Positions 25,987 to 31,183 of a DNA stretch of 62,155 bases are shown in pieces. A program made the translations under genes and the position numbers. The notes under the pieces were generated by a model. It was not told the DNA's origin, did not search any database, and was given only the letters and a program-made list of their open reading frames with translations. The DNA is from Alphaproteobacteria bacterium. Its GTDB lineage: Bacteria > Pseudomonadota > Alphaproteobacteria > Rhizobiales > Xanthobacteraceae. Each line of letters begins with the position of its first letter. Position 1 is the first letter of the stretch. The stretch spans positions 1-62,155 of the forward strand of contig JAPLPD010000174.1 in assembly GCA_026400395.1 (NCBI GenBank), written 5' to 3'.

Positions 25987-27153
25987 TCACCGCTCCGCCT
26001 GATTCGCCGCCGGCACCTGATACTTCAATTCAACTTCCTTGCCGGTGCGTGAGGATTCAATCGCCGCCGTGCAGACTTCAAGATTGGCCACACCCCACCG
26101 GCCGGTGTGCGTCGTTGCTTTGCCGGCGATGGCGTCGGCGAATTCCGCTATCACCCGGTCGCGCGGACTTTGGTCTTTCGGCAGCGCGATCTCTTCGCGG
26201 CCCTCACGGGAATAGACCAGGAGGCCATCCGGTGACTGACGAATATCGCCGCGCTCGCAACTCACCAGCGTCAGACCGAAATGCGGCTGGTGTGGCGCGC
26301 TGGCCGGAATGGCGCTGCGGGCGCGCTTGCGCTTGGCCGCCAGTTCCTGCTCCGGCGTAAGCGCCGCGGCCGGCTGAACCGGCGCGCGAGGACGCATCGC
26401 CTCGCCCCACTCGCCAACGCCGCCGGTCAGTTCGGCGCCCAAAAGATGTCCGTAGCCGTTGTAGATGGCGGTCGCCACCGCGCCGTCGGCGAAATTCAAG
26501 AAGATCGTGTGAGCGCCGATCGAGGAGCGGGAGGCGTCCCAGTCGAACGTGGTGGCGCGCACGCTCTTCACCAGCCCGCCGCCGATCAGCCGCAGAATAT
26601 CGATCTGGTGCGCACCCTGGCGGTAGGTGACGCCACCCCCTTGCTCAATGTCCAGTTCGGCCGACCGGCGCGGACGCGCCATCCAGTCGGTGAAATTCCA
26701 GGTGTGGATCATACGGACACGGCCCAGCTTACCCGACCTGACGATCTCGCCCATGCGGGCGATCGGCAGATCGTAGCTGTGCGAGTGGCCTACCTGCAGA
26801 ACCATGCCGGCTCGCTCCGCCGCGGCAACCATCCCATGCGCCTGTTCGACGCGGATCGCCATCGGCTTCTCGGTCAGGACGTGCTTGCCGGCCGCACTCG
26901 CCAGCGCGACATGCTCCGGATGCAGTTCCGTCGGCGTCGCGATATAAACCGCGTCGAGCCCGCTGCGTACCAGCATCGAAGGCAGGTCGGGGTGCGGCGC
27001 GGCGCCGGTTTCGGCCGCGGCGGCGTCTCGCATCCCCGCGTCGGCTTCCGCGATGGCGGCCAGTTCGAAAGCCGGATTGCCGCGAATCGCCGGTACAAAC
27101 GCCCAGCCGGCGGCACCCATGCCTACGATCCCGATGCGGATTTTACCGGACAT
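25987..27153 (-). CDS. Gfo/Idh/MocA-family oxidoreductase
   Basis: 388 aa from the ATG at 27153 (MSGKIRIGIVGMGAAGWAF). The NAD(P) Rossmann motif is GIVGMGAAG, the family EKP motif appears as VLTEKPMAIRVEQA, and the C-terminal half is the mixed beta-sheet domain (VTYRQGAHQIDILRLIG). Members oxidise or epimerise sugars and cyclic polyols, and some act on aromatic-derived compounds. An Ala/Pro-rich insertion near residue 270 is unusual. Divergent from the second Rieske gene (83-bp gap). Confidence 0.87.
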   Translation of the reverse strand: MSGKIRIGIVGMGAAGWAFVPAIRGNPAFELAAIAEADAGMRDAAAAETGAAPHPDLPSMLVRSGLDAVYIATPTELHPEHVALASAAGKHVLTEKPMAIRVEQAHGMVAAAERAGMVLQVGHSHSYDLPIARMGEIVRSGKLGRVRMIHTWNFTDWMARPRRSAELDIEQGGGVTYRQGAHQIDILRLIGGGLVKSVRATTFDWDASRSSIGAHTIFLNFADGAVATAIYNGYGHLLGAELTGGVGEWGEAMRPRAPVQPAAALTPEQELAAKRKRARSAIPASAPHQPHFGLTLVSCERGDIRQSPDGLLVYSREGREEIALPKDQSPRDRVIAEFADAIAGKATTHTGRWGVANLEVCTAAIESSRTGKEVELKYQVPAANQAER

Positions 27154-27236
27154 ACCTGCTCTTGCGGTTGCTCGTCTGGTCACGCTTGCCGCGCGAGAGT
27201 AAACTGCGGCCGAGCCTAAGAACAGGAGACCGAGCC

Positions 27237-28520
27237 ATGCTGACCGCAGAGCAGAACGAATTGCTCACCCGCGTCGGACCCGGAACACCGTGCGGCGAGA
27301 TGATGCGCCGCTACTGGCAGCCGATCGCGGCGGTCTCCGAACTGACCGGCCCGAAGTGGAACAAGCGCGTCCGCCTGCTGGGCGAGGACCTGGTGCTTTA
27401 CCGCGACAAGCAAGGCCGCATGGGACTGATCACCGAGCAGTGCCCGCACCGGCGCGCCTCGTTCGCCTACGGCATCCCGACCGACGACGGCATCCGTTGC
27501 CCTTACCACGGCTGGGAGTTCGGACATCAAGGCCAGTGTCTCAGCCAGCCGAACGAACCGGAAAAGAGCTCGTTTAAAACCAAGGTCAAGACGCCGGCCT
27601 ATTCGGTCGAGGAAATGGGCGGGATGTTCTGGGCGTACATGGGCCCCGCCGAGAGCAAGCCGTTGCTGCCACGCATCGACGGCTTCGTCACCGATGGCAC
27701 CATCCGCATGCTTGGCCGCACACTCATTCCGGTGAACTGGCTGCAGATCATGGAGAACTCGCTCGACCCGATCCACACCGAGTGGCTGCACGGTCACACC
27801 TACGAGTTTATCAAGGAGCAGCGCGGCCAGAGTCAGAAGGTGGCGATCAGCACGCGGCACGAGAAGATCGCGTTTCGCGAGTTCGAGCACGGCATCACCA
27901 AGCACCGGCTACTCGCGGGACATTCGGAGGATGGCGACGACTGGAAGATCGGCCACCCCGTGGTGTTTCCGAACACCCTGTCGGTCGGAAACGGCGACGA
28001 GACCTCGCGCTACTACGCGTTCCAGATCCGCGTTCCCGCCGACGACACCCACACGCTGCACCTCTGGTACACCGCTTACGTGCCGCCGAAGGGCGTGAAG
28101 GTCGCGCCGGAATTGCTCGACAAGGTCCACGTCTATGACGTGTGCTCTTCCGATCTTCAGAGATGGAACTGACGTTACGACGGCCAGGACATGGCGGTTT
28201 GGTGCACCCAAGGCGCCATCGCCGACCGGACCAAGGAACAGCTCGGTGCTTCCGACAACGGCATTGCGCTCTACCGCCGCGTGCTCCGGCGCGAGATCAA
28301 GAAGGTCGAAGAGGGCGTCGATCCGATGTTCACCTTCCGCGATTCAGCCCGCAACGCGCGCATCGATCTGCCGAACGAGCGTAAAAAACATCACAACAGC
28401 GAGGGCGCGCGGAGCTGGATCATGCGCACTCATGCGGCTTATTCGCCGATCGCTGAGGATGTGATCGCGATGTACGAGGCGGTCAAGCCCGCGCCCACGC
28501 CGCTGCGGGTTGTCGGCTAA
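27237..28520 (+). CDS. Rieske-type oxygenase alpha subunit (phthalate 4,5-dioxygenase-like), interrupted by an adapter artefact
   Basis: Start ATG 27237 with AGGAG upstream. The Rieske motif is C-x-H-x16-C-x2-H (CPHRRASF, then CPYHGWEF). The mononuclear iron site is ENSLDPIHTEWLHGH. The frame is good to VHVYD (28136) and resumes in the same frame at YDGQDMAVWCTQGAIADR (from about 28176) to the stop at 28520. Between them lies an exact Illumina adapter tail followed by a stretch with an in-frame TGA (28170-28172). The expected residues between VYD and DGQD are missing. The real gene is almost certainly intact, about 430-445 aa. Confidence 0.88.
28137..28172 (+). other. Sequencing-adapter contamination (Illumina TruSeq read-2 adapter 3' end) and adjoining misassembled bases
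   Basis: Bases 28137-28156 read GACGTGTGCTCTTCCGATCT, identical to the last 20 nt of the TruSeq read-2 adapter. The next 16 bases complete the in-frame stop TGA and do not resemble Rieske coding sequence. A chance 20-nt match in a 62-kb window is negligible. The segment should be masked. Confidence 0.93.
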
Positions 28521-28530
28521 CCGTCGCTCC

Positions 28531-28737
28531 ATGAACGACACGCCGACTGCTTCCGACACCGTCCGCCTTCTGGCCGAGCAGCAAGGGCTCGGCAAGGCGC
28601 TGAAGCTTTTTCCCGATGGTGTGAAGGCCGCCGCCGAGCGCGGTCTCAGGCCGCTCGGCGAATTTCCGAAAGGCACGACGTCGCTCAACTCGCCCGCGCC
28701 AATTTTCGACCCCGCGCAGTTTGAGCGCGCGAAATGA
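28531..28737 (+). CDS. Small protein of unknown function (68 aa)
   Basis: ATG at 28531, ten bases after the Rieske stop, giving MNDTPTASDTVRLLAEQQGL. The product is a short helical N-terminus followed by a Pro-rich tail (PLGEFPKGTTSLNSPAPIF). Its stop overlaps the amidase start as ATGA, which supports real translation. No family recognised. Position suggests an amidase or Rieske accessory protein. Confidence 0.65.
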   Translation: MNDTPTASDTVRLLAEQQGLGKALKLFPDGVKAAAERGLRPLGEFPKGTTSLNSPAPIFDPAQFERAK

Positions 28738-30155
28738 CCGACCTCGCGTATCTCGGTGTCGCTGAAGGCGCGGCCCTTATCCGCGCGAAGAGGCTCTCGC
28801 CCGTTGAATGGACGCGGGCGCTACTCGACCGTATCGCCGCGATCGACGCCGACTACAACGCATTCCTGGTCGTCACCGCCGAGCGGGCGCTCGCCCAGGC
28901 GAAAACCGCCGAAGCCGAGATCGCCAAGGGCCGATGGCGCGGACCGATGCACGGCGTGCCCTACGCCGCGAAGGACATTTTCGACATCGAAGGCATGGCG
29001 ACCACCTGCCATTCGAAAATCCGGATGAACCATCGCGCGGCGGCCGACGCCTTCGTCGTCAAGAAGCTGCGTGACGCCGGCGCGGTGCTGCTGGGCAAGG
29101 TCGCTCTGCACGAGTTCGCGACCGGCGGACCGGCGTTCGATCTGCCCTGGCCGCCGGCACGCAATCCGTGGAACCGCGACCTGCATCCCGGCGGCTCGTC
29201 GAGCGGCTCTGGCTCGGCCCTCGCCGCCGGCATGACACCGGCAGCGCTCGGCACCGACACCGGCGGCTCGGTGCGCAATCCGGCCACCTGCTGCGGCATC
29301 GTCGGGATGAAGCCGACGTACGGCGCTATATCGCTGGCCGGCGTATTTCCGCTTACCTATTCGCTCGACCACGTCGGGCCGATGACGCGCACCGTTGAGT
29401 ACAACGCGATCTTGTTTCATGCCATTGCCGGCCATGACCCGCACGATCCAACCAGCACCCGACGCGACACGCCCGACTGCCTGACCGAATTGAAATCGGG
29501 ACTGAAGGGCCCTCGCATCGGCGTCGTCGAGCACTTCTATACTGAGGATGCGGCGGCCGACCTCGATCAGGTGCGAGCCATCGGGGAGGCCGCGGGCGTG
29601 CTGCAGAGGCTCGGCGCCCATGTGAAAGCCATCCGGCTGTCGCCTTTGTCGCTGTGGACCGACTGCAACCGCACCATCCACCAGGCCGAGTCGTATGCGA
29701 TCCACGAAAAGGACGTGCAGGAGCGGCCGGAGGACTTCGCCGCGCTGACCCGCAACCGGCTGTTGCCGGGAGCGTTTGTTTCATCGGCGAAATACATCAA
29801 GGCGCAGCAACTGCGCGCCGCGCTGTGCCGCGAGTTTGCCGAGGCGATGCGCGACCTCGACGCGGTGATCACGCTGTCGAGCCTGCTGCTACCGTGCAGG
29901 ATCGACGACCCGGCGGCGATCGCGAAAACGTATGACCAGCAATGCCGCCTTGTTTTCAACGTCACCGGCACGCCGGCCATCTCGGTGCCGACCGGCTTTA
30001 CGGCCAGTGGCATACCACTCGCCATGCAGATCGCCGGCCGCGCCTTCGGCGAGCCGATGGTCTACCGGATCGCACAAGGCTATTGCGAGGCAACCGGTTT
30101 TGCCGGCAAGCGCCCGCCGATCAGGCTGCCCGAAAGGGCCGCGGCGCGCGTCTAG
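28734..30155 (+). CDS. Amidase (amidase-signature family)
   Basis: 473 aa. The Ser-cisSer-Lys triad is visible: Lys in PYAAKDIFDIEG (residue about 83), the cis-Ser in HPGGSSSGSGSALAAG, and the nucleophile Ser in TDTGGSVRNPA. The C-terminal part has FNVTGTPAISVPTGFT, GIPLAMQIAGRAFGEPM. The family hydrolyses amides, with broad substrates from indoleacetamide to aryl acylamides. As the last gene of the Rieske operon it could release an aromatic acid or amine for the oxygenase. Confidence 0.92.
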   Translation: MTDLAYLGVAEGAALIRAKRLSPVEWTRALLDRIAAIDADYNAFLVVTAERALAQAKTAEAEIAKGRWRGPMHGVPYAAKDIFDIEGMATTCHSKIRMNHRAAADAFVVKKLRDAGAVLLGKVALHEFATGGPAFDLPWPPARNPWNRDLHPGGSSSGSGSALAAGMTPAALGTDTGGSVRNPATCCGIVGMKPTYGAISLAGVFPLTYSLDHVGPMTRTVEYNAILFHAIAGHDPHDPTSTRRDTPDCLTELKSGLKGPRIGVVEHFYTEDAAADLDQVRAIGEAAGVLQRLGAHVKAIRLSPLSLWTDCNRTIHQAESYAIHEKDVQERPEDFAALTRNRLLPGAFVSSAKYIKAQQLRAALCREFAEAMRDLDAVITLSSLLLPCRIDDPAAIAKTYDQQCRLVFNVTGTPAISVPTGFTASGIPLAMQIAGRAFGEPMVYRIAQGYCEATGFAGKRPPIRLPERAAARV

Positions 30156-30439
30156 TCACCGACCGTAATGCCGTTCAGGCTACCCGAACGGTGGCCAGGA
30201 ATTTGCCGGCCTCCTGACGGAGCCTGCCGCTTTCCACAGCCAGAAGCCGGGCGGACAACAGGACATGGCTCGATGCCGCGCGATATGGTTGTGCATACGC
30301 ATCTATCAATCACTCGATGAACTCGTTTGATAAATGAATGGTAAAGTATCGGCTGGTCGCGGCACGAAACCCCGATTTTCGGGTGTTAGCGCCATATCCG
30401 GTAAGCGCCCACCCGCGCTCATGATCAGGGAGTTTGAAG
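30156..30439. other. Intergenic stretch, no gene seen
   Basis: 284 bp between the amidase and the DUF1194 gene. A small hairpin lies just after the amidase stop (CCGTTC and GAACGG arms at about 30172-30191) without a T run. A second one, CCCGATTTTCGGG, lies at about 30371-30383. No coding potential or RNA gene recognised. Confidence 0.6.
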
Positions 30440-31183
30440 ATGCTTTTGGCATCGAAACATCGCTCCCCGCTCGGCGCAGGTCTTCTCGCGTTTCTCTTCT
30501 CGAATGCCCTAATCCTCATGCTCGCACTGTCGCCAGGCACGACGGCTCGGGCGCAGGGCCAGGCATTGCCAACCACCGATCTGCTGCTGGTGTTGGCGGT
30601 CGATGCATCCGGCAGCGTCAACCAGACACGCTTCGAATTACAGCGGAAGGGCTACGCGGACGCGTTCCGCAATCCGCGCGTGCTGGATGCGATCCGGAAC
30701 GGCGCGACCGGGTCGATTGCAGTCACCATGGTGCAATGGACCGGCCCGGCCATGCAGGTGATTGCGGTGCCCTGGGTGTTGATCAAAGACACCGGCTCGG
30801 CCAACACCTTCGCAGACGCCATCGAGGCCGCGCCCCGGCGGTTGTTCGGCGGCGGCACTTCGATCAGCGGCGCCATCGACCACGCCATGCTGATCCTGCC
30901 GACGGCGCCCTATCGGGGGCTCAAGCGGGTGATCGACATTTCCGGCGACGGATCGAACAACCGCGGCCGCGATGTCCGCGAGGCGCGCGACGAGGCGGTG
31001 CGCGCGGGCGTAATCATCAACGGATTGCCGATCGTCTCGCTGGAATATGACCTGGACAAATACTATTTCGACCACGTCATCGGCGGGCCGGGTGCGTTTA
31101 TCGTACCAGCGGACTCCTACGACAATTTCGGGCAGGCGGTGCTGCGGAAGCTGATCCTGGAAATCGCGATGAACGACCGCTAG
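30440..31183 (+). CDS. DUF1194 family exported protein with von Willebrand A-like fold
   Basis: 247 aa from the ATG at 30440, which has AGGGAG seven bases upstream. A signal peptide (LLAFLFSNALILMLALSP with ARA cleavage) is followed by LLLVLAVDASGSVNQTRF, the D-x-S-x-S metal (MIDAS) motif of VWA domains. A second piece, KRVIDISGDGSNNRG, carries the conserved Asp. DUF1194 proteins are widespread in Hyphomicrobiales, with unknown function. The TAG stop is the left end of the repeat at 31181-31372. Confidence 0.88.
   Translation: MLLASKHRSPLGAGLLAFLFSNALILMLALSPGTTARAQGQALPTTDLLLVLAVDASGSVNQTRFELQRKGYADAFRNPRVLDAIRNGATGSIAVTMVQWTGPAMQVIAVPWVLIKDTGSANTFADAIEAAPRRLFGGGTSISGAIDHAMLILPTAPYRGLKRVIDISGDGSNNRGRDVREARDEAVRAGVIINGLPIVSLEYDLDKYYFDHVIGGPGAFIVPADSYDNFGQAVLRKLILEIAMNDR

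Follow-up and report, generated by a model that had tools for sequence, protein, structure and literature searches.

How does the end of a sequencing adapter come to lie within an enzyme gene, 28 kb inside a contig? The window analysed here, which is the whole 62,155-nucleotide stretch of contig JAPLPD010000174.1 from an alphaproteobacterium of the Xanthobacteraceae, carries at positions 28137–28156 of the forward strand the string GACGTGTGCTCTTCCGATCT, which is identical to the 3′ end of the TruSeq read-2 adapter. The string interrupts a gene for a predicted Rieske oxygenase and is followed by 22 bases that resemble neither the adapter nor the gene. We conclude that the anomaly, which extends over 28137–28178, is almost certainly an adapter artefact of assembly, whatever the route by which it arose.

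The match covers 20 of 20 bases with no mismatches, and the site is the only one in the window even when up to three mismatches are allowed (0.01 sites are expected from shuffled sequence). The genome of which the window is part (5,309,877 bases in 369 contigs) contains one exact copy of the 20-mer, and the exact TruSeq 13-mer GCTCTTCCGATCT also occurs once in these 5.31 Mb, at the site in the window. The 34-base read-2 adapter string ends in this 20-mer, and the longest exact stretch that it shares with the window is 20 bases. By chance, an exact 20-mer would be met in 62 kb, both strands included, with a probability of about 1e-7. A previous reading of the DNA from its letters (the sequence-only reading) had described the match as the exact 3′ end of the TruSeq read-2 adapter and its chance occurrence as negligible, and both descriptions hold. 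The Nextera mosaic end has no match in the genome, and the longest stretches that the window shares with P5 and P7 are at most 12 and at most 11 bases, respectively, as raw lengths without a chance control. CTCTTCCGATCT and the opposite strand of CACACGTCTGAACTCCAGTCA are named as adapter sequence in PMC11536531.

The interrupted gene is on the forward strand, and the list of open reading frames gives two frames for it, with both flanks of the site open. The 5′ part (27237–28142) ends at the last codon that fits the relatives (VHVYDV) and was assigned by Pfam and by orthologues to a Rieske [2Fe-2S] oxygenase of the phthalate 4,5-dioxygenase/LigXa-like type. The 3′ part (28179–28520), from DGQDMAVW to the stop codon, was assigned to the same gene by LigXa_C and by orthologues. 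A Rieske domain (PF00355, 8.7e-19) is found in 27237–28139, and the Rieske motif C-x-H...C-x2-H is visible in the translation. LigXa_C (PF19301) matches 28179–28517 over profile positions 209–257 (4.6e-10), above the cut-off; it scores 22 bits on the 5′ part, below the cut-off of 27, and 55–56 bits in the intact relatives L003 and L005. Among solved structures, 7fhr, which is named as a putative phthalate 4,5-dioxygenase subunit alpha, is closest in sequence (1.2e-50). The window gene thus shares with Rieske oxygenases of the phthalate 4,5-dioxygenase/LigXa type both the Rieske domain and a LigXa_C-type C-terminal part. We claim no biological difference from that type; the copy in the window is broken by the artefact.

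Downstream, a small open reading frame on the forward strand (28534–28737; 67 amino acids counted from 28534) runs into the start codon of a gene for an amidase-signature enzyme (28734–30155; PF01425, 2.6e-104). The small frame has matches in eight of the nine congeners, at 58–72% identity, and no Pfam or NCBIfam model matched it. Its place recalls, by analogy, that of AtzG and GatC, which are small non-catalytic partners of amidases; AtzG partners AtzE, as described in PMC6219798. The forward strand also encodes, at 30434–31183, a DUF1194 protein (5.4e-68); its von Willebrand A-like match does not reach the Pfam cut-off.

Comparison with other members of the genus indicates what the locus should look like. 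Orthologues were found in nine of the ten other same-genus genomes searched, and their proteins are 79–91% identical to that of the window over the 301 residues that precede the site. In the remaining congener (G003) the match is distant, at 46%, and was left out of the comparison; second copies of the gene in G010 (85%) and G004 (79%) were left out of the alignment. All nine aligned orthologues run through the site at the DNA level, uninterrupted and without the adapter. The sequence-only reading, which had placed an Illumina adapter inside a Rieske oxygenase gene and proposed a comparison with a close relative's copy of the gene, is upheld in this respect by both the exact 20-mer and the nine uninterrupted congeners.

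The wider surroundings are consistent with this. With blastn, one alignment to the window crosses the site in every one of the nine relatives, and in six of them (L004, L005, L007, L008, L010 and L011; loci of at most 3.9 kb) the alignment exceeds 3.5 kb. For the closest relative, L003, the alignment is limited to 27068–28604, and this relative therefore differs further out. Because one alignment spans the site in all nine relatives, we consider the neighbourhood to be right and the joint to be false. A chimera of two organisms was rejected on the same grounds, as the flanks are those of one gene in its usual surroundings.

The spacing of conserved codons shows what happened to the coding sequence. 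The GAC codon of VHVYD at 28137 and the GAC codon of DGQDMAVW at 28179 are 42 bases apart and in one frame, whereas the corresponding distance is 48 bases in the nine relatives. Each distance is divisible by three, which keeps the flanks in frame, as had been claimed for the two Rieske parts. The adapter had been placed between VHVYD and DGQDMAVW, but it does not separate two abutting halves, given the 48 bases of the relatives against the 42 of the window. The first six bases of the adapter, GACGTG (28137–28142, forward strand), fit adapter and gene alike and probably belong to the native gene too, because five of the nine relatives, including the closest, have exactly GACGTG at that point. 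Only the 14 adapter-only bases (28143–28156, forward strand) are surely foreign among those of the adapter.

After GACGTG, the 42 native bases of all nine relatives have as their counterpart in the window a stretch of 36 unrelated bases (28143–28178), of which 14 belong to the adapter only and 22 do not. Over this stretch, identity to the nine relatives is 28–39%, compared with 75–87% for the 60 bases on its left and 72–90% for the 60 on its right. What happened is therefore a replacement, and the plain adapter insertion first proposed is not what the alignment gives. There is no N anywhere in the window, the joint included.

The 22 bases at 28157–28178 (forward strand) have a G+C content of 45%, compared with 64% for the window, and contain the in-frame TGA (28170–28172). 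This stop codon had been attributed to the adapter; it lies beyond the 20-mer, and, because it is within a non-native block, it is silent about the native gene. We rejected the idea that the 22 bases are a garbled native stretch, as their score against the nine relatives is no better than random: 85% of random 22-mers from the window and 71% of shuffles of the stretch itself reach it. Searches for other copies returned only the stretch itself, both in the window and, at up to three mismatches, in the genome. An 18-base piece had no matches in viral_contigs; a 34-base stretch had one match among phages (E = 4) and two among plasmids (E = 3), none of which points to a source; and an 81-base stretch had two matches among E. 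coli genomes, both to the adapter 20-mer alone. The 22 bases share no 9-mer with the 22 bases that follow the adapter in 256 other places (the 251 listed matches described below, plus L273, L274, L275, L277 and L278).

Adapter remnants in public genomes have a characteristic position. Scans with the 20-mer found it in at least 120 stretches from GTDB genomes and at least 120 from IMG/VR, with 251 places among the matches listed. Of these listed places, 246 are no more than 227 bases from a contig end (median, 26 bases), and these 246 face outward with two exceptions (L203 and one copy in L057); the other five (L082, L104, L127, L138 and L168) are internal. Distances were taken to locus ends, and the nearest locus end is the true contig end for the 246 except L256, in which the match is 148 bases from the true contig end; the L127 locus comes from the interior of its scaffold. 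In the family to which the window belongs, 4 of 391 genomes carry the 20-mer, including the genome of the window, and the other three carry it at most 56 bases from a contig end. One of the end-near loci, L057 (JAGSHF010000132.1), has two adapter copies head to head at 783–835, and the sequence that flanks them is repeated inverted; this looks like a fold-back or adapter-dimer artefact.

The end-near pattern of the listed places agrees with published work, in which adapter was found to be concentrated at contig ends and 1,110 of 15,657 MGnify species genomes were adapter-enriched at p < 0.01 (Moeller et al. 2024, BMC Genomics 25:1033, PMC11536531). The contamination described there involves the TruSeq adapter end with the insert on its 3′ side, as in the window. 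The trimming rule, as worded in the relevant passage of that paper, concerns adapter within 300 bases of a contig end and nothing else, whereas the adapter in the window is 28 kb inside its contig and would escape the rule. Adapters in mid-contig have been met at NCBI submission of a fly genome, the authors of which split the contigs (PMC10749331). As in the window, the adapter was inside a contig and was detected by screening; in contrast to the window, the case concerns an insect genome assembled with hifiasm, and the passage that describes it is silent on replaced coding sequence.

We favour a route through the joining of two contigs, which, taken by itself, is probable. The assembly would have broken at the site, leaving untrimmed adapter at the start of the right-hand contig, where it usually lies in contigs that bear it. 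Scaffolding or gap-closing software may then have joined the left-hand contig to the right-hand one, probably through the GACGTG common to both. An overlap of about six bases is enough for SPAdes-type scaffolders, and the adapter has the orientation expected for a contig join, with the insert side to the right. The 22 bases beside the adapter would probably be the end of a library fragment that was chimeric or of low quality. Several observations count against this account. The window's adapter is 28 kb inside a 62-kb contig, whereas 246 of the 251 listed remnants are near contig ends; the reads appear to have been mostly trimmed, because the genome has only one exact TruSeq 13-mer; and the joint has no N and is followed by 22 bases that are not native-like and for which the searches gave no source. 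Because GACGTG is exact in just five of the nine relatives, the six-base overlap is something that we can only infer.

The main rival is a chimeric library molecule, formed by ligation or PCR with adapter inside it and incorporated directly into the assembly with no contig join, which would also make the site an artefact. Such a molecule would account for the adapter and the 22 foreign bases in one piece, as well as for the six-base match at the left edge, but at ordinary coverage a single molecule of this kind should be outvoted by normal reads. It also leaves unexplained the near-native length (36 bases for 42) and the flanks in the right order, and we regard it as possible but rather unlikely. 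A genuine pseudogene with an adapter artefact at its lesion is very improbable: the in-frame TGA does lie outside the adapter itself, but both flanks are open in frame and have 76–87% nucleotide identity to the nine relatives. A real mutation, in which a substitution or insertion in the cell happens to equal the adapter, is practically excluded. The sequence is contiguous and free of N, and we found nothing else in favour of such a mutation; set against it are the chance of about 1e-7 for the exact 20-mer, the end-near position of that 20-mer in 246 of the 251 places among the matches listed, and its absence from 387 of the 391 family genomes, with the other three carriers having it so close to a contig end.

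An event similar to the proposed contig join may be preserved in one of the five internal places. In L127, from scaffold0014 (141 kb) of Mesorhizobium sp. LSHC420B00, one N followed by 24 adapter bases occupies 1675–1699, within folE. The right side matches the GTP_cyclohydroI profile over positions 36–134 (1.1e-41). On the left side, a 49-residue piece has weak matches to positions 2–22 of that profile (E = 0.15) and to a solved GTP cyclohydrolase (E = 0.11), and a 98-residue piece gave nothing useful, one search with it yielding only spurious aquaporin matches. If the weak profile match holds, about 13 folE codons would be missing at the joint. As in the window, an internal adapter remnant would thus stand where codons of a conserved gene are missing. 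The two differ in that L127 keeps an N at the joint and the gene resumes right after the adapter, whereas in the window the N is lacking and 22 foreign bases separate the adapter from the rest of the gene.

At least 2 of 5,426 complete E. coli genomes also carry the adapter inside the chromosome (NZ_AP040990.1, L277; and NZ_AP046542.1, L278); the matches have an E value of 8, near the limit of 10, so this count may be a lower bound. Both have a run of poly-T, P7-like and TruSeq adapter sequence at about 1430–1521 of the locus, which is just before bglG (marked incomplete) in L277 and before cheY in L278. The best other E. coli records cover these stretches only in two pieces, amounting to 92% and 90% of the query.

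Both the artefact, which is of a kind described before, and the enzyme gene that it affects are ordinary. Adapters in mid-contig are already in print (PMC10749331, in the passage discussed above), and what we would add to them is the proposed replacement mechanism. The window, the 5 internal places among the 251 listed (one of them in folE) and the E. coli genomes (at least 2 of 5,426) leave evenly balanced, in our judgement, the proposition that internal adapter joints form a class of hidden misassembly that is small but systematic, in which a few bases in common with an adapter tail lead scaffolders to fuse contigs. If so, such joints would replace a dozen or so codons, create false pseudogenes and escape clean-ups based on end trimming; adapter screens that are confined to contig ends miss internal joints.

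At this locus, an annotation pipeline would probably report either a pseudogene or a truncated oxygenase accompanied by a fragment, and the broken gene could be misread as a lost catabolic function. The significance of the finding is for data quality only, not for biology: judging from the orthologues, the native gene in the organism is most likely an intact, predicted Rieske non-haem iron oxygenase.
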